64,000 bases of DNA from Elusimicrobiota bacterium (GTDB taxonomy: Bacteria; Elusimicrobiota; Elusimicrobia; Elusimicrobiales; UBA9959). The notes beneath the pieces were generated by a model that saw only the letters and a program-made list of their open reading frames with translations, made no database searches and had not been told where the DNA came from. Shown piece by piece: positions 14,124 through 64,000 of the stretch (position 1 is its first letter; each line of letters starts with the position of its first letter). The translations under genes and the position numbers were made by a program. The DNA is taken from positions 186,001-250,000 of the forward strand of contig JAPLKI010000022.1 in the NCBI GenBank assembly GCA_026388155.1. Direction: 5' to 3'.

Positions 14124-15506
14124 ATGACCTACAACAAATCCGTTTCCAAAGCCACCTCCGCAATAGTTTTTTTCGCGTTGGTCTGCGCCCTGTCGGCGCC
14201 GGCCCGCGCCGCCGGCGACTTCTCTTCTTTCTTGGACGGCTCCAACAAGGGCTCCATGGCCGAACTGATCGTAGGCCTGCGCGCCAAGAGCGCTAAAGTT
14301 CCGGCCCCTAAAGCTCCCGAAAGCAATGTTCAGCCCGATCAGGGTTTTGTCAATCAGGAAGGGACCGCGCATATATGGCCCGACATTCTTTTTCTCCGCG
14401 GGGCCGACTACGCCGAGTTCTCGTATACGATGAGCCAGAACAGGGATATGGTGCGGAAGATGCTCCTGCAGGAATTCGGCGAGCTATTCATCCCCATGGC
14501 CGCGTCCAACGCGGACCTGAACGAGCTGGCGAAAACCCTTGCCCAGATCGTCCTGACTTTTGACGAGGTGCATAACAAGCATAAGGACGAGGCCGTGCAG
14601 GGAATACCGGTATCGTTTGAAAACCAGTTCCGCGCCGAGCTTGACGAGCTTTACCGCGCTTACGGCATCGGAGACGGACTCCGCAGGGTGGATTTCCTGT
14701 ATTCCGGTTCCCCCGTGGTCGTGGACGTGAAAGCGCGTTCGCAGCGCAAATCTCTGCCGATGGATATCTTTAAATCCATGGATTATGTCCTTTATGGTTC
14801 CTATACCATGCTGGGCGGAGCCAATATCTCCGTTACCCTGACCGTGGAAAAGATCAAGACCGGGCAGATACGGGGTTTTGAGGTATCCGCTCCGATCAAT
14901 ATCTCCATGAAACTCCTGGCCAGAAAGGTTTTTGATTTCTTACAGTCCAACGAGTACGCCGACTGGGTAAATCCCCAGCCGAACCTGCAATGGATACCTT
15001 CCGCTCCCACGCAGCCCCACACGACCGCGACCTCCGCCAGGCTTTACTGCCACGGGCAGGGAGCCAGGTTCCCTTACGCGAGGGAGCTTATTATGGCAAG
15101 CCAGGGCACCGCGTATCGCCCCGGAGGGATTCCTCCTCTTAATGAGAATGATATTTATATAGTCCTGGACAAGCAGCGCTGGGATGAGCAGCACTATTTC
15201 TTTACCGGCTCTTCCGGAGAGGCGACCGGCGGGCCGGTCAGGACCGGCGCCGGATACGGGGTGATAAACGGCGCTTACTGGTGTGTGCGCGGGCCGGTGA
15301 GCCGGGATGTCAGCTTTTATGAAGACGTCTACGCGCTTATAAGAAAACCCGAAACGCCTCAGCCGGTCCGTGCCGCTTTGGAATGCATACTGGCCAAACT
15401 GAATGACTTCGGAGCCAGGCAGGAGAACTCCGGTGCCTTTTCTACCATAGAAAAGGCGGTTGAGTTCCTTGCCAAGGAAGGCTATACCATTCAACTGCCG
15501 GACTGA
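14124..15506 (+). CDS. Large secreted protein of unknown function
   Basis: 460 residues; not recognised. ATG 14124 gives a good signal peptide (KSVSKATSAIVFFALVCALSAPARAAG); a TTG further upstream adds an unlikely extension. The central part, about 190-285, contains VDFLYSGSPVVVDVKARSQ and DYVLYGSYTMLGGANISVTL, followed by a segment with a VEKIKTGQIRGFE strand. This resembles the CsgG/FlgO-type fold in which MDYVLYGS-like strands precede a regulatory beta-meander. The C-terminal third is rich in Tyr/Gly and contains isolated Cys (LYCHGQG, YWCVRG, LECILA). A strong terminator follows. It is likely an envelope protein. Confidence 0.6.
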   Translation: MTYNKSVSKATSAIVFFALVCALSAPARAAGDFSSFLDGSNKGSMAELIVGLRAKSAKVPAPKAPESNVQPDQGFVNQEGTAHIWPDILFLRGADYAEFSYTMSQNRDMVRKMLLQEFGELFIPMAASNADLNELAKTLAQIVLTFDEVHNKHKDEAVQGIPVSFENQFRAELDELYRAYGIGDGLRRVDFLYSGSPVVVDVKARSQRKSLPMDIFKSMDYVLYGSYTMLGGANISVTLTVEKIKTGQIRGFEVSAPINISMKLLARKVFDFLQSNEYADWVNPQPNLQWIPSAPTQPHTTATSARLYCHGQGARFPYARELIMASQGTAYRPGGIPPLNENDIYIVLDKQRWDEQHYFFTGSSGEATGGPVRTGAGYGVINGAYWCVRGPVSRDVSFYEDVYALIRKPETPQPVRAALECILAKLNDFGARQENSGAFSTIEKAVEFLAKEGYTIQLPD

Positions 15507-33896: not shown

Positions 33897-34646
33897 ATGA
33901 AAAACATATTAAAAATAGCGCTGTTTTCTGTCTTAACTGTGGGGTTATTTGCAGGTATGGCAAAAGCTGACCCTTTTTCCGACTTCAAGAAGCAGGTGCA
34001 GTTGCAGGGTACTGCCCTGCTGAAACCCTTCGCTGAAGACTTCGGCGGGCTGCTGGGCGGGGCTGATTTCACCACCGGCCGCTCTCTCGGTTTCCCCGGT
34101 TTTGACGCGGGCGTTGCGGTTACCATGCAGTCAAAGCCTAACTCAAAGGACCTTCTCCTTAAAAACGCCAAGGTTAACGCTTTCGGAGTGCCGCTGGCGC
34201 AGATTTCGGCCGGCCTGCCGCTGATCGGCGCGAATATAGCGGTGCGCGGCATCACGGTTTCGGGCTTATCAATAATGGGCGGAGGCCTGCGCTATCCGGT
34301 GTTTAAGAGCGGAACACTCACCAAGTTCATACCTGATGTGTCCGTTTCGGCCTTTTACGACACTATTGATTACAAATATTTCAAAGGCAGCCACATGTCT
34401 TTTGACGTGTCGGCCTCGCTGAATATCCCTATTATTAAGCCTTTTGTCGGCCTTGGTTTAGACCATACCAGCCTTGAGGTAAAGGGTGTGCCCGGGTTCA
34501 ATGGCGTGACCGCCAAAACATCGTTCAAACCCCGCTACACGGCGGGCATTAAATTCTCTCCCATGCCGCTGCTTTATGTGTATGGTGCCTACAGTTCACT
34601 GCATGGCAATAGCGGTTACCAAGCCGGCCTTGGGGCGAGATTCTAA
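33897..34646 (+). CDS. Outer-membrane beta-barrel-like protein
   Basis: 249 residues; no named family. Signal peptide 1-24 (ends GMAKA). Amphipathic strands run throughout (for example PDVSVSAFYDTIDYKYF, HMSFDVSASLNI, YTAGIKFSPMPLLYVYGAYSS) and the protein ends GYQAGLGARF with a terminal Phe, typical of an outer-membrane barrel. The ribosome site AAGGAGAGG lies 6-7 bp before the ATG. Confidence 0.72.
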   Translation: MKNILKIALFSVLTVGLFAGMAKADPFSDFKKQVQLQGTALLKPFAEDFGGLLGGADFTTGRSLGFPGFDAGVAVTMQSKPNSKDLLLKNAKVNAFGVPLAQISAGLPLIGANIAVRGITVSGLSIMGGGLRYPVFKSGTLTKFIPDVSVSAFYDTIDYKYFKGSHMSFDVSASLNIPIIKPFVGLGLDHTSLEVKGVPGFNGVTAKTSFKPRYTAGIKFSPMPLLYVYGAYSSLHGNSGYQAGLGARF

Positions 34647-34649
34647 TAA

Positions 34650-34738
34650 GAGTGTAGAGAATATAGACGAGAGTGTAGAGTAAGAAGCAAACATTCGTAA
34701 GGAGACCTCTACACTATCCGCTATTTACTCTCTACTAT
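34650..34738. repeat. Heptamer inverted-repeat hairpin (GAGTGTA type)
   Basis: Left arm 34650-34684: GAGTGTA, GAGAATA, TAGACGA, GAGTGTA, GAGTAAG. Right arm 34706-34738 is the approximate reverse complement in the same 7-nt phase (TAGTAGA, GAGTAAA, TAGCGGA, TAGTGTA when read backwards). It fills most of the space between two genes. Confidence 0.85.
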
Positions 34739-35972: not shown

Positions 35973-36042
35973 TAGCGAATAGCAAATGGCGACTAACGGA
36001 TAGCGTGCGGGGAACTTATATTCCCCCGGCGCTATCCGTTGG
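35973..36042. repeat. Heptamer block (TAGCGAA type) running into a long terminator-like hairpin
   Basis: Five 7-mers from 35973: TAGCGAA, TAGCAAA, TGGCGAC, TAACGGA, TAGCGTG. The last units extend into a stem (AACGGATAGCG ... GGGGAA, loop CTTATA, then TTCCCC ... CGCTATCCGTT to 36040) followed by a T-containing stretch. It probably terminates rocD. Confidence 0.82.
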
Positions 36043-36080
36043 ACTTTTAGACCCATACCTTTTTAGGGTTCTCTTCTGCT

Positions 36081-50024: not shown

Positions 50025-50052
50025 AGGGGTTAGGGAACAGGGATTAGGCATG
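50025..50052 (+). repeat. Heptamer tandem block (AGGGATT type) reaching the start codon
   Basis: Four 7-mers: AGGGGTT, AGGGAAC, AGGGATT, AGGCATG. The last contains ATG 50050 and the third supplies AGGGA as a ribosome-binding site. No inverted arm is seen. Confidence 0.78.
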
Positions 50053-51051
50053 AAGGATATTGTGAATAAAATTGTTTTACTGGCGGCCCTGGGTTTTTTG
50101 TATTTGCCCGCGGGTGTTTGCGCGCAGGAGGAAACTCCGGCGAACGCGCTGCTGCTCCTGCCTTCGGACAAAACGGCTTTTGACACTAAATTCCAGTCTT
50201 TTCTGGCGTCTAAGGACGCCAAGCTGCTGCAATCATTCCCTCCGGTTGCGTTTATAGGCTATATTCCGCAAACGCTGGACGCGGACCTGGAGAGAAAATA
50301 CGGGGCGCAGGTTTACAGGGACAAGGTGGAGGATATGTCCGAATTTTTCAAGCGCGGGGAAAACGCGGTTTTTGCCGTCAACGCCTGGAACAAGCGCTTT
50401 CTGGAAGATCCCTCGGCGGCCCCGGTTGTGGTTACCTCCAGGGTAAACCAGGCGCAAAACGGAGCAAAGATGATCCTGCGCTGGAACTACGTAATGAAAG
50501 CCGACCGTTACAGGCTGCAGATAAGCTCCGACAGCGATTTTTCGGCTAATCTGGTGGAAACTACGGTTGATGACAACTTTTACAATATCTATCCTGCTTT
50601 TTTCCACGAAGGCGTTTACTACTGGCGGGTGGAAGGGCTGCTGACTTTAAACAACGGGGAGAAAAAAGAAGGCTCCTGGTCCGAGACCTATTCTTTCGCT
50701 GTGCCGGGGCAGCCCGGAGCCCCAAAAAGTTCGGCCCCGCAAAAGGCAAAATTGCCGGCTTACCTGACCGTAAAGGGGGGGAAGGTTTTTACCTGGGAGA
50801 AAACGGCCAAATATTACAGGCTGCAGATAGCTGAAACGGCTGATTTTGAAGGTGTTATTGTAGACGAAATGACCGATAAGAACACGCGCAAGCCTTTATG
50901 GCCGGTTCTGGAATCCGGCAGAACATATTATCTGCGTCTGACCGCCTCCGACGGCGCGGGCCCCTATCAATGGTCGATTCCGGTGGAACTAAATCTGGAC
51001 CGGGCAAATCCAGCGTCCCGCAGCGTCATGAAAATAAAACCCGCTAAATAA
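50050..51051 (+). CDS. Secreted protein with FN3/Ig-like modules
   Basis: 333 residues. Signal peptide 1-25 (ends GVCAQ). An N-terminal domain of about 110 residues (ALLLLPSDKTAFDTKFQSFL) recalls the prodomain-like region of subtilase/protease accessory proteins. Two FN3-like modules follow, each with RYRLQISSDSDF or YYRLQIAETADF strands and a YYWRVEG or YYLRLTAS edge. It precedes the M6 protease gene by 18 bp and is likely co-transcribed. The arrangement suggests a role linked to that protease (chaperone, inhibitor or surface partner), but this is inference. Confidence 0.62.
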   Translation: MKDIVNKIVLLAALGFLYLPAGVCAQEETPANALLLLPSDKTAFDTKFQSFLASKDAKLLQSFPPVAFIGYIPQTLDADLERKYGAQVYRDKVEDMSEFFKRGENAVFAVNAWNKRFLEDPSAAPVVVTSRVNQAQNGAKMILRWNYVMKADRYRLQISSDSDFSANLVETTVDDNFYNIYPAFFHEGVYYWRVEGLLTLNNGEKKEGSWSETYSFAVPGQPGAPKSSAPQKAKLPAYLTVKGGKVFTWEKTAKYYRLQIAETADFEGVIVDEMTDKNTRKPLWPVLESGRTYYLRLTASDGAGPYQWSIPVELNLDRANPASRSVMKIKPAK

Positions 51052-51069: not shown

Positions 51070-54000
51070 ATGAAAAAGCGTTTTAACTCTATGCCGCGGG
51101 GTTTCCTGGATCGTTCTATCTTGCTGATTTTAGGTTATCTTTTCCTCCCCGCGGTTTCCATGGGAATGCCGGCCAATCCCAAGCCCGTCGAAGTTATGCA
51201 GTCCGACGGCGCCAAAGTAAAACTTATCCTCAGGGGCGATGAATTCCATCATTGGCATGAAGATGAGAGCGGTTATACGGTCTTGAAGGATACCTCCACC
51301 AATAACTGGGTTTATGCTGAACGGGATGCGAAGGGTTCGCTAAGGCCCGGGAAGTATAAAGCCGGGGTTAATAACCCGGCTTCCCTGGGTTTTTTGAAAC
51401 ATTATATGGACTCGGATAAGGTCAGGCGCGCGACAGAATTGCGCAATAAGAGGGATTCCTCCTCCGCTTTCCATGTTTTCGGCAGCCGCACCGTTACCGG
51501 AGCGCGGGTCTCCGCTGCGCCGGCCAAAACCCCGATACTGACCGGCACAATGAAGAACCTGGTGATATTAGCCGAGTTCCCGGACATTCCACACACCCAT
51601 ACTCAAGCCGAGTTTGACGCCCTGTTTAACCAGGCCGGATATGCCACCGACCATGCTCTGGGGTCGGTAAAGGATTATTATCATGAGGTCTCTTATAACA
51701 ATCTCACGGTTCAGTCGGTGGTGACCCAGTGGGTAACCCTTCCTCACAACCATGATTATTACGGCGCGAACACTGCCGGCCAGGGAACTGATATCGATCC
51801 TCAGCAAATGGTAATAGACGCCATAAACGCGCTGGCTGCCACGGGGTTTAATTTCACCACGGTGGACGGCAACGGAGACGGAATGGTGGATGGTCTGGAT
51901 ATTATACACTCGGGCAGAGGCGAAGAATGGGGGGGCAATGATCCCAATTATATATGGTCCCATGAATGGGAACTGGATACGCCGGTAACGAAACAGGGTA
52001 AAACAATGCAGATGTATCATACCGAGCCGGAAGTGCGGGGCTGGGATGACGATAACACTTCCTGGGGCTTAACGCGCATAGGGACCATCTGCCATGAAAC
52101 AGGCCATTTTCTGGGATTGCCCGATCTTTATGACACGACCGGCGCCAGCGCGGGGATCGGGGCATTCTGCCTGATGTCCGGAGGTTCCTGGAATGGTCCG
52201 AGTGATAATGGAGCTTCCCCCGCGCATATGAGCGCGTGGTGCAAAAAAACGCTGGGCTGGGCCACACCCGCCCAATTGACCATGATCGGAACCGATTCCC
52301 TGCCCAGAATTGAAGATAATTCCGGCGCTATGTACATGCTGCAGGATGCTTCTTTCCCGTCAACCGAATATTTTCTGGTGGAGAACAGGCAGGGCTACGG
52401 TTTTGACGCCTATCTGCCCGGCTCCAGCCGGGGCATACTTGTCTGGCATGTGGACGAAAGTATGCCCGATAACTCCGATAAAACGCATTATCTGGTAGAT
52501 CTGGAAGAAGCGCATGGGGGGGTGCAGATCCTGCAAACTGATCCCAATGCGACCGGGGAAGACTCAGATTATTTCCGCTACGGCAATAAAACCATTTTCG
52601 GCGACAGCACCGACCCCAACAGTAAAAGTTATGGAGGGAAGAATCTGAAACTGCTGCTGAAAAATATTTCGGCTACCGGCAATCCGATGAGTTTTGATCT
52701 GGGCAGCACCGACACGACCCCTCCCGCCAATATCGCAGTTGTAAATGACGGGCTTACCGCGGATATCTCCATAACAGGTTCCTTAACGCAATTATCGGCT
52801 AACTGGACCGCGTCCAGCGACTCAGAAACCGGCTTGTACGGGTATTGGTATGCCATAGGAACTTCGCAGGGAGCCAATGACGTGGCAGGCTGGACTTTCA
52901 ACGGGACGGGACTATCGGGACAATTTGTTACTAAAACCGGGCTGAACCTGATCAGCGGCACTACCTATTATTTCGGAGTTAAGGCGGAAAACGGGGTGGG
53001 CCTTTACTCCGCTGTTACCTGGTCCAACGGTCAAAGGGTAGATCTGGGTTCCCCTACGGATATCCCTTATGTCAACGACGGCACGGGTGCGGATATCCAA
53101 TATGTTTCCTCGCTGAATACCCTGTCGGCCAATTGGGGAGCTTCCACCTATACCGGCGGCAGCATCGATCATTATGAATACTGCATAGGAACCACACCGG
53201 GCGCCGTTAATGTGGCTGGCTGGACGAGCGTGGGCGGCAATCGCGCCGTTACCAAAACCGGGTTGTCGCTTACGGATGGAAATACCTACTATTTCGGGGT
53301 ACAGGCTTTTACCGCGGTCGGGCACTCGGGCGTAGCCCTGTCCGACGGCCAGCAGGTGGATGTTACAAGTCCCACGGCTAAAGTTATAATTACTTCCGCT
53401 TTGCCCGCCCGCCCCGGCGCGTTCAGCGCGAAGCTGATAGTTAACGAGGCCAACGGCCTGGCCGGCGCGCCCGCGCTTAAAATCGCTCCCGGCTGCGGCG
53501 CGGCTTATAATACAGCCCTGTCGTGGGTGACGCTTTCCACCTGGACGGTTTCCTCTTTCATCGAAACTTATTTTTCCACCGGCGCCGCCTGCTTTGTGTT
53601 TTCCGCCGCTGATCTGGCCGGCAATACCGGCACGGTTATAACATCAGGCGGAAGTTTCGATATTGACACTTCCATTTCCGGCGCGGCCGGCGGCACGGTG
53701 GCGAACAGCGATGGTTTCGGTGTGACCGTGCCGGCCGGGGATGTCAGCGGAAACTTTTTTGTAACTATCTCAACCGTGGCAGCCTCTCTTACCGACTCTG
53801 CCGACGCCTTAAGCCCCGGTTCGGTAAGGCTGCGCGTAAACGATCTTGTAAGGGATTTTTCCGCCAAAGACGCGCTTGGCGGGTCAATACATTCTTTTTC
53901 CGCGCCCCTTACGATAACTCTGCCTTATTCGGATGCCGACGCGGACGGCAGGATAGACGGCGACAATATCCGCGTGGACCTGGCCTGGATTTATTGGCTG

Positions 54001-54420
54001 GACGAGGCATCGGGTAGGTGGACTCCGGTAGCGGGAACCGCGCACAACACCGCGGCCAACACGCTGACGGCTGCGGTAAATCATTTCTCGCTCTATTCCA
54101 TAAGAGCGCAGGCATCTTCGGCCCTCACGCTTGCCAACCTCAAGGCCTACCCGAATCCCTGCGACTTCAATAAAACCCCGTACCACTTGACCATAGTCGG
54201 CATTCCGACGGATGAAACAGCCCCCGCAATTTATATCTACAACTCGGCAGGCGAGCTGGTGCGCGTTTTAAAACGCGGCGCCGGCATTGACCCGCTTAAC
54301 GAAGCCTCGTGGGACGGCAGGGGCAAAGGGGGAGGCAGGGCCGCGAGCGGGCTTTATATTTATATGGTAAGGACGGAAAAATACGGCAATGGAAGCGGAA
54401 AGTTTTTTGTGAGCTGGTGA
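51070..54420 (+). CDS. Giant secreted M6-type metalloprotease with C-terminal sorting domain
   Basis: 1116 residues. Signal peptide about 1-34. An N-terminal prodomain-like region (EFHHWHEDESGYTVLKD) precedes the M6 catalytic domain (about 165-540). Zinc site CHETGHFLGLPDLYD has His342, Glu343 and His346 (HExxH). Two FN3-like repeats (about 552-770) resemble those of the giant C1A protease. Then comes a shared C-terminal region of about 350 residues with LKAYPNPCDFN, IYIYNSAGELVRVL, WDGRGKGGGRAASGLYIYMV and end GKFFVSW. This last part is the FlgD-Ig/type IX-like sorting domain. A porV-like gene follows 19 bp downstream. Extracellular protein degradation is likely. Confidence 0.88.
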   Translation: MKKRFNSMPRGFLDRSILLILGYLFLPAVSMGMPANPKPVEVMQSDGAKVKLILRGDEFHHWHEDESGYTVLKDTSTNNWVYAERDAKGSLRPGKYKAGVNNPASLGFLKHYMDSDKVRRATELRNKRDSSSAFHVFGSRTVTGARVSAAPAKTPILTGTMKNLVILAEFPDIPHTHTQAEFDALFNQAGYATDHALGSVKDYYHEVSYNNLTVQSVVTQWVTLPHNHDYYGANTAGQGTDIDPQQMVIDAINALAATGFNFTTVDGNGDGMVDGLDIIHSGRGEEWGGNDPNYIWSHEWELDTPVTKQGKTMQMYHTEPEVRGWDDDNTSWGLTRIGTICHETGHFLGLPDLYDTTGASAGIGAFCLMSGGSWNGPSDNGASPAHMSAWCKKTLGWATPAQLTMIGTDSLPRIEDNSGAMYMLQDASFPSTEYFLVENRQGYGFDAYLPGSSRGILVWHVDESMPDNSDKTHYLVDLEEAHGGVQILQTDPNATGEDSDYFRYGNKTIFGDSTDPNSKSYGGKNLKLLLKNISATGNPMSFDLGSTDTTPPANIAVVNDGLTADISITGSLTQLSANWTASSDSETGLYGYWYAIGTSQGANDVAGWTFNGTGLSGQFVTKTGLNLISGTTYYFGVKAENGVGLYSAVTWSNGQRVDLGSPTDIPYVNDGTGADIQYVSSLNTLSANWGASTYTGGSIDHYEYCIGTTPGAVNVAGWTSVGGNRAVTKTGLSLTDGNTYYFGVQAFTAVGHSGVALSDGQQVDVTSPTAKVIITSALPARPGAFSAKLIVNEANGLAGAPALKIAPGCGAAYNTALSWVTLSTWTVSSFIETYFSTGAACFVFSAADLAGNTGTVITSGGSFDIDTSISGAAGGTVANSDGFGVTVPAGDVSGNFFVTISTVAASLTDSADALSPGSVRLRVNDLVRDFSAKDALGGSIHSFSAPLTITLPYSDADADGRIDGDNIRVDLAWIYWLDEASGRWTPVAGTAHNTAANTLTAAVNHFSLYSIRAQASSALTLANLKAYPNPCDFNKTPYHLTIVGIPTDETAPAIYIYNSAGELVRVLKRGAGIDPLNEASWDGRGKGGGRAASGLYIYMVRTEKYGNGSGKFFVSW
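53374..54418 (+). repeat. Duplicated protease tail, copy 1
   Basis: This region (from TSPTAKVIITS to the C-terminus) is paralogous in order and length to 62109-63163. The encoded residues are largely identical: EANGLAGAPALKIAPGCGAA and SGAAGGTVANSDG match, for example. Together with the porV-like gene that follows, each copy forms a module of about 2 kb. Confidence 0.9.
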
Positions 54421-54439
54421 AAAGTAAGTTCCAGTTAAT

Positions 54440-55459
54440 ATGGTCAAGATAATCTCAGCGTGTATTATAGCTTTAAGCCCGGTTAGCGCACGGGCCGAGA
54501 CCGGCACTACCGCTATGCCTTTTTTAAAAATAGACTCGGGCGCCAGGGCCGCGGCTCTTGGCGGGGCTTACTCCGCGGCGGGCGACGACGCCGCCAGCGT
54601 TTTTTACAATCCGGCGGGCGCCGCGCTCGCTGACAGGAAAGAACTTGAACTTTCGCATAACGAGTGGCTTCAGGGGCTGCGGAACGAAAACCTGGCCTAT
54701 GTCCAACCGCTTGGCAAAAACTTTACGGCTTTTGGCGGCGCGAACGTGCTGCTAAGCGGCGCTATGAATAAATACGACGCTTCAGGGGGGAATACCGGCT
54801 CTTTCAATTCCCTGGAAGGAGCTTTTAGCCTGGGTCTTGCGGCTGGTCTTGGCGGGAACTGCTACGGAGCCGCCGCCTTGAAGACATTTTACCAGAAAGC
54901 TGATAAAAACAGCGCCTTCGCCTTTGGGGGGGATGCGGGACTGCTGAAAATTTATGGAGATTGGAGTTTTGGCGCGTCGGTCTCCAATCTGGGCGCTAAA
55001 CTGAAGCTTGGTTCCACCGCCTTTAGTCTGCCGCTTATTATACGGGCAGGCGCGGCAAACCGTTTGAACGAACAGTTTTTGCTTTCGGCGGATGCGGTGA
55101 AAGCGGGTGAGAGTCAGACCGCGTTCTGCGCGGGTGCCGAGGGCGAGTTTATGATCAGGGAAAACGAGGCTTTTTTTGTCAGGGCGGGGTATAAAAGCGG
55201 CAGGAGTCAGTACACCGGCCCCGGTTTTACGGCCGGCATCGGTATCAAAAACAATGATCTGCGCCTGGATTACGCCTTTTCCCCGTACGGCGACTTGGGA
55301 GACTCCCACAGGATAACGCTTTCTTTCCGTTTTGGCGTGACGCGGGAGGATATTCAGTCCACAAAAAAGTATCCGCGTCCTTCTCGCAAGCCGGCCGGAA
55401 AGCGCAACAAGCCGGCTGAAAAGAAAAAAGACAAAGAAGGCATTCCGCTGATATGGTAG
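54440..55459 (+). CDS. PorV/PorQ-like outer-membrane protein, copy 1
   Basis: 339 residues. Short signal peptide (1-19, ends VSARA). The family opening MPFLKIDSGARAAALGGAYSAAGDDAASVFYNPAGAA is clear, followed by barrel strands and a basic tail (KKYPRPSRKPAGKRNKPAEKKK). PorV is the outer-membrane shuttle of the type IX secretion system that carries substrates with a C-terminal sorting domain to the attachment complex; relatives also occur without a full T9SS. The gene lies 19 bp after the M6 protease gene. The lysine-rich end may contact peptidoglycan or partner proteins. Confidence 0.85.
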   Translation: MVKIISACIIALSPVSARAETGTTAMPFLKIDSGARAAALGGAYSAAGDDAASVFYNPAGAALADRKELELSHNEWLQGLRNENLAYVQPLGKNFTAFGGANVLLSGAMNKYDASGGNTGSFNSLEGAFSLGLAAGLGGNCYGAAALKTFYQKADKNSAFAFGGDAGLLKIYGDWSFGASVSNLGAKLKLGSTAFSLPLIIRAGAANRLNEQFLLSADAVKAGESQTAFCAGAEGEFMIRENEAFFVRAGYKSGRSQYTGPGFTAGIGIKNNDLRLDYAFSPYGDLGDSHRITLSFRFGVTREDIQSTKKYPRPSRKPAGKRNKPAEKKKDKEGIPLIW

Positions 55460-55474
55460 TAAGGGAGTAAAAAA

Positions 55475-55567
55475 GTCGTGGCGTCTAAGAGTCTTGGAGT
55501 CAGGGAGTATCTTTAGAGGAGATTTTTCAACAGACTCTATGACTCCCGACTCTCAGACTCTTGGATT
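55475..55567. repeat. Heptamer inverted-repeat hairpin (GAGTCTT type)
   Basis: Left arm from 55475: GTCGTGG, CGTCTAA, GAGTCTT, GGAGTCA, GGGAGTA. Right arm from 55533: GACTCTA, TGACTCC, CGACTCT, CAGACTC. The loop is about 23 nt. It follows the first porV-like gene by 15 bp. Confidence 0.83.
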
Positions 55568-55588
55568 TTCACTGTAATATTTCGCAAA

Positions 55589-55617
55589 TTGACAAATGCT
55601 GACACGCCATATATACT
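55589..55617 (+). promoter_or_regulatory. Consensus sigma-70 promoter of the C1A protease gene
   Basis: TTGACA at 55589-55594 and TATACT at 55612-55617 with a 17-bp spacer; leader of about 110 nt to the ATG at 55732. The leader contains GTTATGTCCCTAA, a motif seen elsewhere in reverse (near 978). Confidence 0.85.
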
Positions 55618-55731: not shown

Positions 55732-58700
55732 ATGAAGACCTTTTCCAAAACGGTTTTTACAGCGATCACGGCGCGTTCAGCCGCGCGTGGTTTATTCTTT
55801 GCCACCGCAGCCGCTTTTTCGATGCTCCTTCCCTCCGCGCTCATCGCCCAGAGTGCAGTTCCTTCCTCCGCGCCGCTTAACCCTAAGTTCGTGGCTTATA
55901 TGGCCGCCTCGTCCGGCAAGCAGCAGCGGGTGAAAGCAGTTTCAGGTTCCAGTCATACATTGGGTTTACTTCCTGCGCCGTTCGACTTTTCGTACATGAA
56001 AGGCCGGCACCCCGCGCTCAAGGGGGGGGCTCATGTGCCCAAGTTGGGATACGATTCCACCTATGACCTAAGGAGTCTCGGTAAAGTCTCCTCTGTTAAG
56101 GACCAGGGCGGCTGCGGTTCATGCTGGGCTTTTGCAACCATGGCGTCTCTTGAATCCCGCCTGCTTCCGGGTGAATCGCGGGATTTCTCCGAAAATAACC
56201 TTAAAAACACGTCCGGCTTCGATTACGCCCCCTGCGACGGAGGGGAGTATGCAATGGCAACGGCATACCTGGCCAGGTGGAGCGGTCCTTGGAACGAAAC
56301 GGCCGATCCATACGTTATTACGGAAAATAAACAGGCCCCCATATACCCTTCCCCCAACACCCAGAAGCATCTGCAGGAGGCCCTCTTTCTTCCGGACAGG
56401 TCCGGCCCTGCCGATAACGACAATATAAAATACGCATTGACCGCTTACGGAGCGGTGTTTACCTCGATCTATATGAATGAGGATGACCCCAACTACTCCG
56501 ACTACTATGATCCCGCCAACAAGTCCTATTATTACAACGGCGCCGCCGACACCGACCATTCCGTTACCATAGTCGGCTGGGACGATAATTTTGACAAGAA
56601 CAAGTTTAAAACTGTGCCGGCCGGCAACGGCGCCTTTATTGTCAAGAACTCCTGGGGCGCCGGCTGGGGCGACAGCGGCTATTTTTATATATCGTATTAC
56701 GACGCGGGCCTGAAGCAGAATACCGCTTTCTCGGTGGCCGAGTCCACCGGCAACTATAACAGGACTTACCAGTATGACCCGCTGGGCCAGACTTCAGCCA
56801 CAGGCTACGGCACCAATACGGCCTGGTTTTCAAATGTGTTTACCGCGGCTGAAAATAACACCCAGGTGACCGCCGTAGGTTTTTATACCCTGGCTGTGGA
56901 TTCAGCCTATGACATATACGTTTACCGCGGCGTCACAGCCGGCAACCCGCGCTCCGGCACTCTGATCTCCAGCCAGCCAGGAGGGTCGCAGCCCTATGCC
57001 GGCTATCATACTGTTCCTCTTGCCACCACAGTGGCGCTGACCAGCGGCCAAAAATTTTCAGTAGTAATAAAGATGACCACCCCCGGCTATAATTTCCCTA
57101 TCCCTATGGAATTACCCATAACCTCCCCCAGCCCGTCCTATTCCAGCGGCGCGACGGCCCATGCGGGAGAAAGTTATATCAGTGAGTTAGGCAGCGTATG
57201 GACGGATCTTATTACGCCAAATCCCAACGCCAACGTCAATATAAAGGCTTTCACTTCCGACACCACGCCCCCGTCCAACATAACCACCGTCAACGACGGT
57301 TTATCCACCGACATTACTTATGTTAACTCCCTCAGCCAACTGTCGGCCAACTGGACGGCGTCCGTGGACGCCGAAAGCGGGATACGGCGCTACTTGTACG
57401 CCATCGGCAACACGCTCGGAGGGAACGACGTTCTAGATTGGACTGACAACGGCAACAATACTTCCGTGACACAAACAGGGCTTATCCTTACCAACGGGCA
57501 AATATACTACTTCAAGGTAAAAGCGGAGAACTGGGCAGGGATGTCCTCCGCTGTCACTAATTCCAACGGGCAGACTACAGATAACACCGCTCCTTCAACC
57601 CCGGCGTTCATAAACGACGGCACGGGGGCTGACATAGCCTGGACAGGCTTCCCATCGCAGTTGTCCGCGAACTGGGCCGCCAGTTCCGACGCGCAGAGCG
57701 GCATAGCTAAATATTGGTACGCAATAGGCCACTCGCCTGGCGCGGCTGACGTATTGGGTTGGACTGACAACGGCAACAAAACTTATGTCACGAAGACGGG
57801 TCTGCCCTTGGTGGACGGGTATCCATATTATTTTACGGTAAAAGCGGAGAACGGAGAGGGCCTGCAGTCCGACGCGGTGAATTCCGACGGCCAGACGGTG
57901 GATGAGACCGCCCCGTCAAACCCCGGAGCGGTCAATGACGGCATGGGGGCGGATATAACATATGCGAATTCAAACACTCAATTATCGGCCAACTGGATAG
58001 CCGCGACAGACGCGCAGAGCGGGATAGGCAGATATTGGTACGCAATAGGCACCACCGCGGGGGGCACGAATGTAGTTAATTGGACCGACAACGGCATTCA
58101 TACTTCTACTACAGCGGCCGGTCTGACCCTGGCTAACGGGCAGATATACTATTTCACGATCAAGGCGGAAAACGGGGCGGGCCTGCCGTCCGGCGCGGTG
58201 AGTTCCAACGGCCAGAAGGTGGACACCACTTTCCCTTCCGCCCCCGGCGCGGTCATTGACGGCACTGGAGTTGGTGATATAACCTATGTGAATTCAAGCA
58301 CGCAGCTGTCCGCCCACTGGACAGGCGCTGCGGACGCAGAGAGCGGTATAGCCAGATATTGGTACGCGATAGGCACCACCGCGGGGGGCACGGATACCCT
58401 GGATTGGACCGACAATGGCTCCAACATTTCTGTTTCAACGGCGGGGTTGAGTCTGACGAACGGGGTGACCTATTACTTTACCGTTAAAGCCGAGAACGGC
58501 TCGGGACTGCAATCCACTCCGGTAAACTCCAACGGCCAGACCGTGGATATTACGGCGCCTTCCAGCCCCGCGCCCGTAAACGACGGCACGGGGGACGATA
58601 TCTCCGAAACCGGCATCCCGAATCAGTTGTCCGCAAATTGGGCCGCCAGTTCCGACGCGGAGAGCGGCATAGTCAGATATTGGTACGCGATAGGCACCAC

Positions 58701-61700
58701 TGCGGGGGTCACGGATACCTTGGATTGGACCGACAATGGAACCAGCACTTCTGTTACTAAGACCGGCCTGAGCGGCCTGGTCAACGGCGTAATATATTAC
58801 TTCACGGTCAAGGCGGAGAACGGCGCGGGGCTGCAGACTACGCCGGTAAACTCCAACGGCCAGCTAATGAACGTAGATGTCACGCCGCCAACCAATCCGG
58901 CCCAGGTCAGGGACGGCGCCGGAGCCGATATTGACTGGTCCGGCTCTCTGACCCGGCTGTCGGCCAACTGGGATCCCAGTTCCGATCCACAGACTGGTAT
59001 AGCCAAATACTGGTACGCGATAGGCACCACTGCGGGGGGCACGGATGTAGTGGCTTGGACCGACAACGGCACTAATACCTCTACTACAACTACCGGCCTG
59101 AGCCTGAGCAACGGGCAGATATATTATTTCACGGTCAAGGCGGTGAACGGCGCGGGGCTGTGGTCCGGCGTGGTGAATTCCAACGGCCAGACGGTAGATA
59201 TTACCGCCCCGTCGCTTCCCGGCGCGGTCAATGACGGCACGGGGGCGGATATAACCTATGCGAACTCAAACACGCAGCTGTCCGCCAACTGGACAGGCGC
59301 GACAGATGATCAGAGCGGAATAGCCAGATATTGGTACGCGATAGGCACCACCGCGGGGGGAACGGAGGTGACAGACTGGATAGATAACGGTCCCAACATT
59401 TCTGTTACAAGGTCCGGGCTGAACCTGACCAACGGGCATATATATTACTTCACGGTAAAAGCGGAAAATGGGGCGGGGCTGCCTTCCAGCGCGGTGAATT
59501 CCAACGGCCAGAAGGTGGACACGACCGCCCCGTCAAACCCCGGCGCGGTCAATGACGGAGCGGGGGCGGACATAACTTATACGAATTCCATCACGCAGCT
59601 GTCCGCCAACTGGACAGCCGCGACAGACGCGGAGAGCGGAATAGCCATGTACTGGTACGCGATAGGCACCGCTCCGGGAGGCGCGGATGTTTTGTGGTGG
59701 ACGGACAACGGCGCCGGTATGTCCGTCACAGAGAACGGGCTGGACCTGACTACCGGTGTAACCTATTACTTTACTGTTTATGCCGAGAACGGCGCTGGGT
59801 TGCCGGGCTTAGCCGCCAATTCCGACGGCGTAACTGTTGACACTACTCCGCCTTCCAATATCTGGGCCGTAAATGACGGCACGGGAACCGATATAGCCGA
59901 AACCGGTATCCCGACCCAGTTGTCGGCCAACTGGACCGCCGGTATCGACACGCAGAGCGGGATAGCCATGTACAGGTACGCGATAGGTACCACTACGGGG
60001 AGCACCGACGTGACAGGCGGCTGGAGGAATAACGGCACTATTACTTCTACTACAACAACCGGTCTGACCCTGACAGACGGCGTGACCTACTACTTCACGG
60101 TCAAGGCGGTGAACGGCGTCGGGCTGGAGTCCTCCTCCACCACCTCCAACGGCCAGTGGCTGAACACGGATGTCACGCCGCCCTCCAATGTGGCCCAGGT
60201 AAGGGACGGTACAGGAGCCGACACCGCCTGGTCCGGCTTTTCGGATCAACTGTCGGCCAACTGGGACCCAGGTTTCGACGCGGAGAGCGGCATAGCCGAA
60301 TACTGGTACGCTATAGGCACCACTGCGGGAGACACGGATACCCTGGTGTGGACCGATAACGGCAACAGCACCTCCGTTACAAGTACATCCTTGATCCTGA
60401 CTTTCGGGCAGAAATACTACTTCACGGTAAAAGCGAAGAACGGCGCCGGGCTCTGGTCCGGCGTAACGAATTCCGACGGCCAGACGGTGGACACGACCGC
60501 CCCGTCAACCCCCGGCGCGGTCAATGACGGCACGGGGGGGGATATAACTTATACGACTTCCACCACGCAATTGTCGGCCAACTGGACCGCCGCGACAGAC
60601 GCGGAGAGCGATATAGCCAGATATTGGTACGCGATAAGCACCACCGTCGGCGGCACTAATGTGGTGAACTGGACTGACAACGGCACTAACACTTCTACTA
60701 CAACTACGGGGCTGAGCCTGGCGAACGGCGTGACCTATTACTTTACTATTAAGGCTGAGAACGGCGCCGGGTTGCAGTCCGGCGCGGCAAATTCCAACGG
60801 CCAGACGGTGGACACGACCGCCCCGTCAAACCCCGGCGCGGTAAATGACGGTGCGGGAGCGGATATAACTTATGTGAATTCCACCACGCAACTGTCGGCC
60901 AACTGGACAGCCGCGGCAGACGTTCAGAGCGGGATAGCCAGATATTGGTACGCGATAGGCACCACCACTGTGGGGAGCACGGATTTTCTGGGGTGGACTG
61001 ACAACGGCGCCAACACTTCCACTACAACTACGGGGCTGAACCTGGTGAACGGCGCGACCTATTACTTTACCGTTAAAGCCGAGAACGGCGCGGGGCTGCA
61101 GTCCGATGTATCCAACTCAAACGGCCAGACGGTGGATACGACCGCCCCGTCAAACCCCGGAGCGGTCAATGACGGTACGGGGCAAGATATAAATTATGTT
61201 AACTCCCTCAGCCAGCTGTCCGCCAACTGGATAGCCGCTGCCGACGCTCAGAGCGGGATAGCCAGATATTGGTATGCGATAAGCTCCACCACCGCGGGGG
61301 GCACGGATTTTGTGGGGTGGACGGACAACGGCGCCAACATATCTGTTTCAACGGCGGGGCTCAGCCTGACGGACGGAGTGACCTATTACTTTACCGTTAA
61401 AGCCGAGAATGGCGTAGGCCTGCAATCCGGTGTTTCCAACTCGAACGGCCAGGTGGTGACTTTGGATTTCACTCCGCCGACAAACGTGGCCCAGGTCAGG
61501 GACGGCACCGGAGCCGACGCCGCCTGGTCCAACTCGCTTACCCAGTTGTCGGCCAATTGGGACTCGAGCTCCGCTCCGCAGAGCGGCATAGCCGGCTACT
61601 GGTACGCTATCGGCACCACGGTGGGCGGGACTAACGTGGCGGGCTGGACTGATAACGGCAACAACACTTCCGTTACCAGGACCGGGCTGTACCTGACGAA

Positions 61701-63165
61701 CGGCGCTACCTATTATTTCGGGGTTAAGGCGGAAAACCTGGTGGGCGTTTACTCCGATGTTACCTGGTCCAACGGGCAAATATTAGATACAAGTTCCCCC
61801 GCGGATATCACTTATGTTTACGACGGCACGGGCTCCGACATAGATTATATTTCTTCTTTGAACACGCTGTCAGCCCATTGGGGGGCTTCCGCCCATCCCA
61901 GCGGTATTAACCGTTATGAAGTCGCTATCGGCACATTCACGGGAGGCCTGAACGTGAAGGATTGGACCGCCAACGGGGTGGCGCTCAGCACCACTGTCGC
62001 CGGTCTTGCTTTGACCGAGAGCACAACTTATTATTTTTCAGTGAAAGCGTACAGTAACAGCGGCTCTTCTTCCGCCGTGAAAGTATCCGACGGCCAGATG
62101 GTGGATATTACAAGCCCCACGGCTACGGTGATAATTACCTCCGTCCAGCCTGCCACACTCGGCGTTTTCAGCGCGAAGCTGATAATTACCGAAGCCAACG
62201 GCCTGGCCGGCGCGCCCGCGCTTAAAATCGCTCCCGGCTGCGGCGCGGCTTATAACACGAATGTCTCCTATCTGGCCTATTCCACCTGGACGGTTTCCTC
62301 TTTCATAGAAACTTATTTTTCCACCGGCGCCGCCTGCTTTGTGCTTTCCGCCGCCGATCTGGCCGGAAATATCGGCACGGTGATAACATCAGGCGGAAGT
62401 TTCAATATTGACACTGCCATTTCCGGCGCGGCCGGCGGCACGGTGGCGAACAGCGATGGCTGCGGCGTGAGCGTACCGGCCGGGGATGTCAGCGGAAACT
62501 TTTTTGTAACTATCTCAACCGTGGCATCCTCTCTGACCGACCCGGCTGACGCCTTAAGTCCCGGTTCGGTAAAGCTGCACGTAAATGATCTTGTAAGGGA
62601 TTTCTCCGCCAAAAGCGAGCTTGACGCGCAAATACATAATTTCCCCGCGCCCCCTACGATAACTATGGCTTATCCGGATGCCGACGCGGACGGCATGGTA
62701 GACGGCGACAATGTCCGTGAGGACCTGACCTGGATTTATTGGCTGGACGAAGTATCGGGCAGCTGGGTGCCGCTGCCGGGAGTCAGTCACGATTATAGCG
62801 CCAACACCTTATCGGCGGATGTCAACCATTTCTCGGTCTATTCAATAAGGGTAAAGTCAGTTTCCGGGCTTACGTTCTCGAACCTGAGGGTTTATCCGAA
62901 TCCCTGCGACTTCAATAAAACCCCTTACCGCTTAACCATAGCCGGCATTCCGCAGGATGAAACAGCCCCCGCAGTTTACATCTACAACTCGGCAGGCGAG
63001 CTGGTGCGCGTTTTAAAACCCGGCGACGGCATCGATCCGATTAATGAGGCCTTGTGGGACGGAAGGCTTAAAGGGGGGGGGAAGGCCGCGAGCGGGCTTT
63101 ATATTTACCTGGTAAAGACTAAAAAATACGGTAAGGGAAGCGGAAAATTTTTTGTGCGCTGGTAA
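55732..63165 (+). CDS. Giant secreted C1A (papain-like) protease with 15 FN3-like repeats and C-terminal sorting domain
   Basis: 2477 residues. N-terminal signal/anchor about 1-40, prodomain, then the catalytic domain (about 108-340). Oxyanion Gln125 and nucleophile Cys131 are in QGGCGSCWAF, His276 in DHSVTIVGWDD and Asn306 in VKNSWGAGWG: a complete papain triad. A beta-domain follows (about 345-505), then 15 FN3-like repeats (about 510-2126). The last 350 residues are the same tail as in the M6 protease, ending YPNPCDFN, IYNSAGELVRVL, ASGLYIYLV, GKFFVRW. It is predicted to be exported by a type IX-like route with the downstream PorV. Runs of eight or nine G occur at 56022, 60534 and 63073. 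A chagasin-type inhibitor is encoded at 25689. Confidence 0.9.
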   Translation: MKTFSKTVFTAITARSAARGLFFATAAAFSMLLPSALIAQSAVPSSAPLNPKFVAYMAASSGKQQRVKAVSGSSHTLGLLPAPFDFSYMKGRHPALKGGAHVPKLGYDSTYDLRSLGKVSSVKDQGGCGSCWAFATMASLESRLLPGESRDFSENNLKNTSGFDYAPCDGGEYAMATAYLARWSGPWNETADPYVITENKQAPIYPSPNTQKHLQEALFLPDRSGPADNDNIKYALTAYGAVFTSIYMNEDDPNYSDYYDPANKSYYYNGAADTDHSVTIVGWDDNFDKNKFKTVPAGNGAFIVKNSWGAGWGDSGYFYISYYDAGLKQNTAFSVAESTGNYNRTYQYDPLGQTSATGYGTNTAWFSNVFTAAENNTQVTAVGFYTLAVDSAYDIYVYRGVTAGNPRSGTLISSQPGGSQPYAGYHTVPLATTVALTSGQKFSVVIKMTTPGYNFPIPMELPITSPSPSYSSGATAHAGESYISELGSVWTDLITPNPNANVNIKAFTSDTTPPSNITTVNDGLSTDITYVNSLSQLSANWTASVDAESGIRRYLYAIGNTLGGNDVLDWTDNGNNTSVTQTGLILTNGQIYYFKVKAENWAGMSSAVTNSNGQTTDNTAPSTPAFINDGTGADIAWTGFPSQLSANWAASSDAQSGIAKYWYAIGHSPGAADVLGWTDNGNKTYVTKTGLPLVDGYPYYFTVKAENGEGLQSDAVNSDGQTVDETAPSNPGAVNDGMGADITYANSNTQLSANWIAATDAQSGIGRYWYAIGTTAGGTNVVNWTDNGIHTSTTAAGLTLANGQIYYFTIKAENGAGLPSGAVSSNGQKVDTTFPSAPGAVIDGTGVGDITYVNSSTQLSAHWTGAADAESGIARYWYAIGTTAGGTDTLDWTDNGSNISVSTAGLSLTNGVTYYFTVKAENGSGLQSTPVNSNGQTVDITAPSSPAPVNDGTGDDISETGIPNQLSANWAASSDAESGIVRYWYAIGTTAGVTDTLDWTDNGTSTSVTKTGLSGLVNGVIYYFTVKAENGAGLQTTPVNSNGQLMNVDVTPPTNPAQVRDGAGADIDWSGSLTRLSANWDPSSDPQTGIAKYWYAIGTTAGGTDVVAWTDNGTNTSTTTTGLSLSNGQIYYFTVKAVNGAGLWSGVVNSNGQTVDITAPSLPGAVNDGTGADITYANSNTQLSANWTGATDDQSGIARYWYAIGTTAGGTEVTDWIDNGPNISVTRSGLNLTNGHIYYFTVKAENGAGLPSSAVNSNGQKVDTTAPSNPGAVNDGAGADITYTNSITQLSANWTAATDAESGIAMYWYAIGTAPGGADVLWWTDNGAGMSVTENGLDLTTGVTYYFTVYAENGAGLPGLAANSDGVTVDTTPPSNIWAVNDGTGTDIAETGIPTQLSANWTAGIDTQSGIAMYRYAIGTTTGSTDVTGGWRNNGTITSTTTTGLTLTDGVTYYFTVKAVNGVGLESSSTTSNGQWLNTDVTPPSNVAQVRDGTGADTAWSGFSDQLSANWDPGFDAESGIAEYWYAIGTTAGDTDTLVWTDNGNSTSVTSTSLILTFGQKYYFTVKAKNGAGLWSGVTNSDGQTVDTTAPSTPGAVNDGTGGDITYTTSTTQLSANWTAATDAESDIARYWYAISTTVGGTNVVNWTDNGTNTSTTTTGLSLANGVTYYFTIKAENGAGLQSGAANSNGQTVDTTAPSNPGAVNDGAGADITYVNSTTQLSANWTAAADVQSGIARYWYAIGTTTVGSTDFLGWTDNGANTSTTTTGLNLVNGATYYFTVKAENGAGLQSDVSNSNGQTVDTTAPSNPGAVNDGTGQDINYVNSLSQLSANWIAAADAQSGIARYWYAISSTTAGGTDFVGWTDNGANISVSTAGLSLTDGVTYYFTVKAENGVGLQSGVSNSNGQVVTLDFTPPTNVAQVRDGTGADAAWSNSLTQLSANWDSSSAPQSGIAGYWYAIGTTVGGTNVAGWTDNGNNTSVTRTGLYLTNGATYYFGVKAENLVGVYSDVTWSNGQILDTSSPADITYVYDGTGSDIDYISSLNTLSAHWGASAHPSGINRYEVAIGTFTGGLNVKDWTANGVALSTTVAGLALTESTTYYFSVKAYSNSGSSSAVKVSDGQMVDITSPTATVIITSVQPATLGVFSAKLIITEANGLAGAPALKIAPGCGAAYNTNVSYLAYSTWTVSSFIETYFSTGAACFVLSAADLAGNIGTVITSGGSFNIDTAISGAAGGTVANSDGCGVSVPAGDVSGNFFVTISTVASSLTDPADALSPGSVKLHVNDLVRDFSAKSELDAQIHNFPAPPTITMAYPDADADGMVDGDNVREDLTWIYWLDEVSGSWVPLPGVSHDYSANTLSADVNHFSVYSIRVKSVSGLTFSNLRVYPNPCDFNKTPYRLTIAGIPQDETAPAVYIYNSAGELVRVLKPGDGIDPINEALWDGRLKGGGKAASGLYIYLVKTKKYGKGSGKFFVRW
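57262..62109 (+). repeat. Array of 15 FN3-like repeats (about 321 bp each)
   Basis: Each unit encodes about 107 residues of the form NDGTGADITY, QLSANWTAATDAESGIARYWYAIGTTAGG, TDNG, TGLxLxNG, YYFTVKAENGAGL, SNGQTVDTTAPSNPGA. Repeats 1-14 are close; repeat 15 is more diverged and resembles the second FN3-like repeat of the M6 protease. The codon-level similarity suggests ongoing homogenisation and probable copy-number variation. Confidence 0.9.
62109..63163 (+). repeat. Duplicated protease tail, copy 2
   Basis: Paralogue of 53374-54418. It contains a run of nine G at 63073-63081, where copy 1 has GGGGGAGG, inside the sorting domain. Confidence 0.9.
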
Positions 63166-63172
63166 GAAGGGA

Positions 63173-63268
63173 AAGGCTGAAGGCTTAAGACTGAAGGCTG
63201 AAGGATTAGGAATGAAACCGGAAAAATAATTTTTGTTTTTGTTTCATCCTTCAGCCTTCAGCCTTGCG
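63173..63268. repeat. Heptamer inverted-repeat hairpin (AAGGCTG type) inserted between protease and porV copy 2
   Basis: Left arm from 63173: AAGGCTG, AAGGCTT, AAGACTG, AAGGCTG, AAGGATT, AGGAATG. Right arm 63241-63265 is the approximate reverse complement (CATCCTT, CAGCCTT, CAGCCTT). In copy 1 of the module the same space is only 19 bp and lacks the hairpin. Confidence 0.85.
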
Positions 63269-63275
63269 GGCTAAT

Positions 63276-64000
63276 ATGGTCAAGATAATCTTAGCGTGTA
63301 TTATAGCTTTAAGTCCGGTTCGCGCTTTTGCCGCCGGCACTACCGCTATGCCTTTTTTGAAAATAGACTCGGGCGCCAGGGCCGCGGCACTTGGCGGGGC
63401 TTACTCCGCGGCGGGCGACGACGCCGCCAGCGTTTTTTACAATCCGGCGGGCGCCGCGCTCGCGGACAGGAAAGAACTTGAATTTTCGCATAACGAGTGG
63501 CTTCAGGGGCTGCGAAACGAAAACCTGGCTTATGTTCAGCCGTTCGGCAAAAACCATACGGTTTTTGGCGGCGCGAACGTGTTGTTAAGCGGCGTTATGG
63601 ATAAGTACGACGCTTTAGGGGTTAATACCGGCTCTTTCAACTCCCTGGAAGGAGTTGTTAGCTTCGGGCTTTCGACTGCTCTTGGCGGGAACTGGTACGG
63701 CGCTTCCGCCTTGAAAGTGTTTTACCAGAAAGCCGATAAAGACAGCGCCTCCGCCTTTGCGGTGGACTCGGGGCTGCTGAAAATTTCAGGGAATTTGCGC
63801 TTTGGCGCGTCGGTCTCCAACCTGGGCACTAAACTGAAGCTCGGTTCCACCGCCTTTGGTCTGCCGCTTATTATACGGGCAGGCGCGGCAAAGCGTCTGA
63901 ATGAACAGTTCTTGCTTTCGGCGGATATGGTGAAAGCTGGCGAAAGTCAGACCGCGTTCTGCGCGGGCGCTGAGGGCAAGTTTGTGATCAAGGAAAACGA
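63276..64000 (+). CDS. PorV/PorQ-like outer-membrane protein, copy 2 (partial)
   Basis: The frame from ATG 63276 is open to the right edge (241 codons visible). It closely matches the copy at 54440, with MPFLKIDSGARAAALGGAYS and DAASVFYNPAGAALADRKEL identical, and diverges mainly in the middle (for example LGVNTGSFNSLEGVVSFGLS). The signal peptide is short (ends VRAFAAG). It is expected to carry the C1A protease to the surface, as copy 1 would the M6 protease. The start ATGGTCAAGATAATC is conserved between copies. Confidence 0.85.
   Translation, partial: MVKIILACIIALSPVRAFAAGTTAMPFLKIDSGARAAALGGAYSAAGDDAASVFYNPAGAALADRKELEFSHNEWLQGLRNENLAYVQPFGKNHTVFGGANVLLSGVMDKYDALGVNTGSFNSLEGVVSFGLSTALGGNWYGASALKVFYQKADKDSASAFAVDSGLLKISGNLRFGASVSNLGTKLKLGSTAFGLPLIIRAGAAKRLNEQFLLSADMVKAGESQTAFCAGAEGKFVIKEN

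Follow-up and report, generated by a model that had tools for sequence, protein, structure and literature searches.

Intergenic heptanucleotide repeats have been described in several phyla, with no agreement on their origin or role. The P6b stem-loop of the tRNA-Leu(UAA) intron in Nostoc has a stem built from 7-nt repeats of the classes TDNGATT and NNTGAGT, and related strains carry different word classes at the same position, where whole stems have been replaced repeatedly (PMC4476775). Geobacter metallireducens contains multicopy intergenic sites of tandem hepta- or octanucleotides, several classes of which are strand-paired and capable of forming hairpins (PMC2700814). Tandem TAACTGA repeats are found in intergenic DNA near start codons in Beggiatoaceae and cyanobacteria, with many sets per genome (PMC4679880). 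In clostridial selective RNA processing and stabilization (SRPS), intra-operon stem-loops located behind a gene set product ratios (PMC8219983, PMC4423207). A literature search with partial coverage found no description in Elusimicrobiota of heptamer hairpins of the kind reported here.

The window, the whole 64-kb stretch of DNA analyzed here (C22:186001–250000), comes from a 3.36 Mb Elusimicrobiota MAG (the own genome, G000) with 32 PorV-family matches, and it contains two copies of a module consisting of a protease tail and porV, all features being on the forward (+) strand. The copy 1 protease (51070–54420) has an M6 catalytic domain, fn3-like repeats and a T9SS-type C-terminal tail, and is followed by a porV of the PorV/PorQ family (54440–55459; 339 aa; NF033709, E 5e-41). 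The copy 2 protease (55732–63165) has papain-like (C1) and lectin-like domains, a long fn3 array and the duplicated tail, and its porV (63276–64000; 357 aa) extends past the window to end at C22:250349. As originally predicted, the flanks are paralogous, with 79% nucleotide identity in the tail and 89% in porV; the two proteases are unlike in their N-terminal halves, making copy 2 a chimera. Identity per 100 bp was patchy (44–98%), which suggests gene conversion and would blur the dating of the duplication. Copy 1 retained the upstream neighbor, a gene with a weak DUF4962 match (50050–51051), and copy 2 retained the downstream convergent genes. In G016, G023 and contig C84 of G019 a single module lies between these two neighbors, so that their split between the two copies is the pattern left by a tandem duplication; the DUF4962-type neighbor lies upstream of the single module in these three genomes and also in G004 and G006. 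In the congener G001 (Elusimicrobia bacterium UBA9634, contig DMES01000030.1), the M6 gene stops at the end of contig C30 and contig C36 begins within the fn3 array, hence the number of modules there is one or two.

The gap between protease stop and porV start (gap A) is 19 bp in copy 1 (54421–54439; stop at 54420, start at 54440) and 110 bp in copy 2 (63166–63275; stop at 63165, start at 63276), with TAAT ahead of both porV ATG codons. The original prediction had these coordinates right, and the copy 2 gap is, as it stated, occupied almost entirely by an AAGGCTG-word hairpin. Sequence, inverted repeats and predicted fold define a 5′ arm (63173–63210) that reads AAGGCTG AAGGCTT AAGACTG AAGGCTG AAGGATT AGG, an upper stem with an A/T-rich loop (GAAAC...TTTTTG...GTTTC; 63211–63245) and a 3′ arm (ATCCTTCAGCCTTCAGCCTT; 63246–63265) that is 95% complementary to 63187–63206, the arms corresponding with a 7-nt offset. 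The fold was −45.2 kcal/mol compared to −25.9 ± 3.3 kcal/mol for shuffles (z −5.85; 0 of 200 shuffles as good), and the period-7 score of 17/21 was reached in 0 of 3000 dinucleotide shuffles and in 1 of 1860 equal-length coding pieces. Among short periods in the own genome, lag 7 was likewise the most frequent, with 25 segments compared to 0–8 for each of the others between 3 and 13, and only periods 7, 8 and 14 were enriched. With AAGGCTN words in both arms and an intergenic position, the hairpin belongs to the AAGGCTG-word class as defined here, and it has the tandem, mutually complementary 7-nt-word arms of the wider family. Its apex is GAAAC...GTTTC and not the AAGGANNTCCTT of the main family, and a covariance model of the apex elements gave it 13.5 bits (E 0.21); architecture and a common slot are what would tie it to the apex family. 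Neither a GTAG/CGTC tag nor a 20–40-bp REP palindrome was present in 63166–63275, and the whole window had 0 Rfam matches above the gathering score. A clean source copy for the copy 2 element was looked for and not found.

Matches to AAGGCTG 18-mers numbered 140 in the own genome, 110 in G001, 245 in G004 and 266 in G015, with approximately none for the reversed control. The commonest palindromic apex in the gaps of the own genome was AAGGNNNNCCTT (33), followed by AGGANNTCCT (32). The AAGGNNNNCCTT apex was common to arms of GATAGGG/CGAATAG words, arms of GCCATAA words and one 8-mer class (C22:396099), and several word classes shared the one apex AAGGANNTCCTT. The arms of these dispersed palindromes are best read as tandem, interchangeable words of 7 or 8 nt. 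In an alignment of 16 elements from a single class, the variable heptamer letter covaried across the stem, and each of three pairs showed six double changes; these elements were chosen by apex, and apex conservation in the alignment is thus by construction. The covariance model derived from this alignment found at least 70 sites in each of the own genome, G001, G004 and G015, with 57 in G002, 52 in G019 and fewer in G003 (34), G010 (28), G006 (12) and G020, compared to 0–8 in genomes of genus g4 (none in most) and none in family f2. The family is abundant in several related genera. It matched the gap A element of G001 with an E value of 1e-19, that element being in the training set. An exact apex pattern searched over the phylum was too strict, missing G002 and G010, both of which the model found. 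The same words, the same apex and sometimes whole elements of ~108 bp were repeated at dozens of unrelated loci. Strict elements occurred at 0.80 and 0.84 per kb in co-directional gaps and at 0.13–0.38 per kb in divergent or convergent gaps. Arms matched better within than between elements in the own genome (p 0.008; 7 elements), the corresponding value in G001 being p 0.33 (9 elements). No insertion footprint and no mobilizing enzyme was found for the heptamer elements. Two more weak members of the model lie in the window at 34644–34736 (25.9 bits) and 35981–36047 (24.5 bits). Beyond the window, two giant fn3-array frames of 3682 and 5896 aa (L050 and L051; C22:291526–315991) contain in-frame heptamer runs that use different words (CAGCCTT, ACAACTC, GGTATCC), at what appears to be an equivalent position in homologous fn3 domains.

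Occupancy of the slots turned over rapidly between related genomes. 101 conserved neighboring gene pairs were compared between the own genome and G001, with strict elements in 12 own gaps and 14 G001 gaps. Both genomes had an element in 2 cases, where independent occurrence would give 1.7 (Fisher p 0.67), and a loose threshold gave 8 doubly occupied gaps compared to 5.5 expected (p 0.17). Judged by eye, the word class of doubly occupied gaps was kept in approximately five (C22:251662, C25:177513, C25:182637, C25:286868, C25:419249) and changed in approximately seven. Examples of such changes are GAGTTAG to CAAGTCA (C25:177010), ACCGGTT to AAGGCTG (C22:57566) and CTATTCG to CAAGTCA (C25:403317). 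Clean filled/empty pairs were found between G004 and G015, for example 12 vs 120 bp with a stop codon on one side and a ribosome-site-like GGAGTTT on the other, although these regions were picked for their elements and the turnover rate there is biased. The two gaps of the duplicated module do differ by a heptamer hairpin, as expected of the natural before/after pair that the original prediction saw in them, but with such pairs abundant between relatives this one is not special. At one gene gap G004 carries a long array of (AAGGCTAAAGGCTG)n (L103:10272–10565) where G015 carries an array of (GGGGCTA)n (L159:1333–1399). Short repeats in G004 (L107:16521–16609 and 15053–15195) have about ten equal-identity copies in G015, often near contig ends, and are possibly the ends of a mobile element.

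Gap A was ≤16 bp in 28 of 39 homologous modules and mostly 1 bp (TGA T ATG). Judging from these sequences, a tight (~1 bp) gap is ancestral in the homologous modules as a whole and the hairpin is the derived state. Longer gaps contained a TATAGGG-word hairpin with the AAGGANNTCCTT apex in G001 (92 bp), a decayed element of the same family as that of G001 in contig C44 of G019 (72 bp), TATGGCC words in contig C84 of G019 (124 bp), a AAGGTGAT 8-mer in G006 (75 bp) and one arm of GGGTATA words in G004 (45–102 bp depending on the start chosen), while L018 and L020 have a long gap A without period 7 or 8. GTAG-type palindromes (GTAGTGGCAAAGCTTGCTTTGC) were also seen in heptamer-hairpin slots, namely at gap A of G015 (C177), where the palindrome is REP-like, and at L146 and L149 of G001. 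A tight gap A and rarity or absence of the family coincide in genus g4, with the exception of G010, in which the family is present and the gap is 3 bp. In a tree of concatenated porV and protease tail the two own copies were sisters (96/91) within a 100/99 clade that also contained G001 and G019:C44, the nearest outgroup modules, both of which carry words other than AAGGCTG. At least four to five changes of gap A state were required on the tree, and gains at the slot happened several times. Under a two-state model, the probability of an occupied gap at the time of duplication was 0.96 when every palindrome counted as an occupant, 0.74 under equal rates, 0.74 and 0.49 when G019:C44 was scored as unknown and as empty, respectively, 0.89 when only heptamer elements proper counted and 1.00 when the trait was a gap over 12 bp. 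The 19-bp gap of copy 1 contains no hairpin and no detectable remnant, its similarity to the gaps of G001, copy 2 and G019:C44 being at shuffle level (p 0.39, 0.62 and 0.86, respectively); an apex-like AAGTAAGTTCC within it was considered as a remnant and dropped, the resemblance being post hoc. The elements of G001 and G019:C44 were alike beyond shuffles (p 0.0005). Nine other apex elements matched G019:C44 equally well or better, and a single element inherited by both was rejected; their likeness speaks for a common class and not for a common copy. With element positions changing this quickly between congeners, polarity at this single locus is uncertain and G001 may have acquired its element independently.

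Copy 1 is not hairpin-free, a point the original prediction omitted. The gap behind its porV (gap B; 55460–55580, +) contains a GAGTC-type 7/8-mer hairpin (−45.3 kcal/mol), the left arm of which is common to copy 2 just beyond the window end (C22:250350–250480). In that copy the right arm, apparently rewritten in part, is now akin to AAGGCTG words, with a weaker fold (−29.5 vs −45.3 kcal/mol). Because the left arm is present in both copies, the GAGTC hairpin behind porV belonged to the duplicated block; it was missing at the corresponding place in G001. A promoter-like site (55589–55617; TTGACA-17-TATACT, 11/12) lies between the copy 1 gap B hairpin and the papain-like protease gene.

The reading we favor, with moderate confidence, is that the copy 2 gap is one of the slots filled by a lineage-specific set of intercistronic palindromes that are dispersed in high copy number, and that the element was present before the duplication and was then lost in copy 1. 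A post-duplication gain of the hairpin in copy 2, copy 1 showing the old state, would fit the short gap of copy 1, which resembles most homologous modules, as well as the recurrent gains at this slot and the even odds obtained with G019:C44 coded as empty. However, gap A is long and carries an element in each of the two nearest outgroups, the 19 bp of copy 1 are unlike the usual 1–3 bp, and five of the six codings give 0.74–1.00 for an occupied ancestor, so that loss from copy 1 is more likely and a late gain rather unlikely. The pair was originally taken as direct evidence of a gain inside the duplicated module, a view that a long ancestral gap would overturn. With elements already in the gaps of G001 and G019:C44 that claim is not supported and the ancestral gap was probably long already; what stands is that the hairpin is derived over the homologous set, and the loss from copy 1 named there as the alternative becomes the likelier branch.

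The remaining explanations concern how such a hairpin arises or what it is. Growth in place from a short seed, by 7-nt slippage and quasi-palindrome templating with no mobile or dispersed element, is consistent with the offset of the copy 2 arms, the restriction of enrichment to periods 7, 8 and 14 and the long pure arrays of different words in one slot of G004 and G015, and slippage of heptanucleotide repeats is an idea cited in PMC4679880. Local growth leaves unexplained why words, apex and whole elements recur at unrelated loci, and we consider it unlikely as the origin; slippage may still have a secondary effect on elements once inserted. Mobilization of a REP-type element by a Y1 (RAYT) transposase would account for dispersed intergenic palindromes and for GTAG-type palindromes in the same slots, and Y1_Tnp genes are present in the own genome (4) and in relatives. 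They are, however, equally common where heptamer elements are few or absent (G005, 4; G016, 3; G047, 4), and the elements have neither the GTAG tag nor the REP core. Y1_Tnp counts being uncorrelated with the number of heptamer elements, the Y1 transposase was rejected as the mover and this origin is highly improbable. The strong GC-containing stem between co-directional genes could also suggest an intrinsic terminator or attenuator between protease and porV, but the 3′ arm is followed by GCGGGCTAATATG with no T-run and the window scan listed no terminator-like site there, on which grounds a terminator at this gap was ruled out and the explanation retains next to no credibility. Finally, a lineage-restricted machinery might use templated word-wise synthesis to write or rewrite the 7-nt words of hairpin arms that surround a shared apex, which we regard as quite improbable. 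Were it true, a whole stem would switch word class at a fixed slot with complementarity kept, through neither ordinary transposition nor slippage.

Under the favored reading of an element that preceded the duplication and was lost in copy 1, the protease stop and porV start would ancestrally have been ~1 bp apart, and the element would have entered gap A in this branch, most likely ahead of the module duplication. It would subsequently have been lost or deleted from copy 1, and the copy 2 element replaced or reworded, giving the present AAGGCTG words compared to TATAGGG in the G001 orthologue. As the elements are densest in gaps flanked by co-directional genes and are seldom found in divergent ones, most would be transcribed within operons. 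Transcribed mid-mRNA directly behind the protease stop, the copy 2 hairpin may uncouple the translation of porV from that of the protease and could protect the upstream message against 3′ decay. Protease and porV might then be expressed in differing ratio, a role suggested by likeness to the clostridial operon stem-loops.

The Elusimicrobiota set combines many copies, many word classes and gaps that can be matched across relatives, with element-lacking genomes as a control. Gain, loss and word switching can be counted slot by slot, and the many natural filled/empty pairs are available for tests of operon expression. The pair formed by copy 1 and copy 2 is one example among these, and the slots taken together provide stronger evidence.

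Clostridial SRPS stem-loops resemble the copy 2 hairpin in standing behind a gene in an operon, where they can set the product ratio of neighbors; they have no repeat words and are not dispersed, and their function has been measured, whereas that of the heptamer hairpins is proposed here (PMC8219983, PMC4423207). REP and GTAG-tagged RAYT palindromes are likewise dispersed, intergenic, palindromic and transcribed, but have tagged cores of 20–40 bp, in contrast to the ~90–110 bp of the present elements, which have heptamer arms and whose numbers do not follow Y1_Tnp counts (PMC3733652). The TAACTGA repeats share the intergenic position, the 7-nt tandem unit and the many sets per genome; they consist of one word, are almost exclusively direct (169 direct sets and one indirect) and are not hairpins (PMC4679880). 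The Geobacter metallireducens sites come closer, being multicopy, intergenic and made of tandem 7–8-nt words in hairpin-capable pairs, although they were read as regulator binding sites, the spacing of their paired arms is variable and no slot-by-slot turnover was shown (PMC2700814). The nearest precedent is the Nostoc P6b stem-loop, which has both a hairpin stem of 7-nt repeats and replacement of word classes at one position (PMC4476775). P6b occupies one fixed group I intron site, whereas the Elusimicrobiota elements occupy hundreds of intergenic sites per genome, with more word classes and a shared apex.
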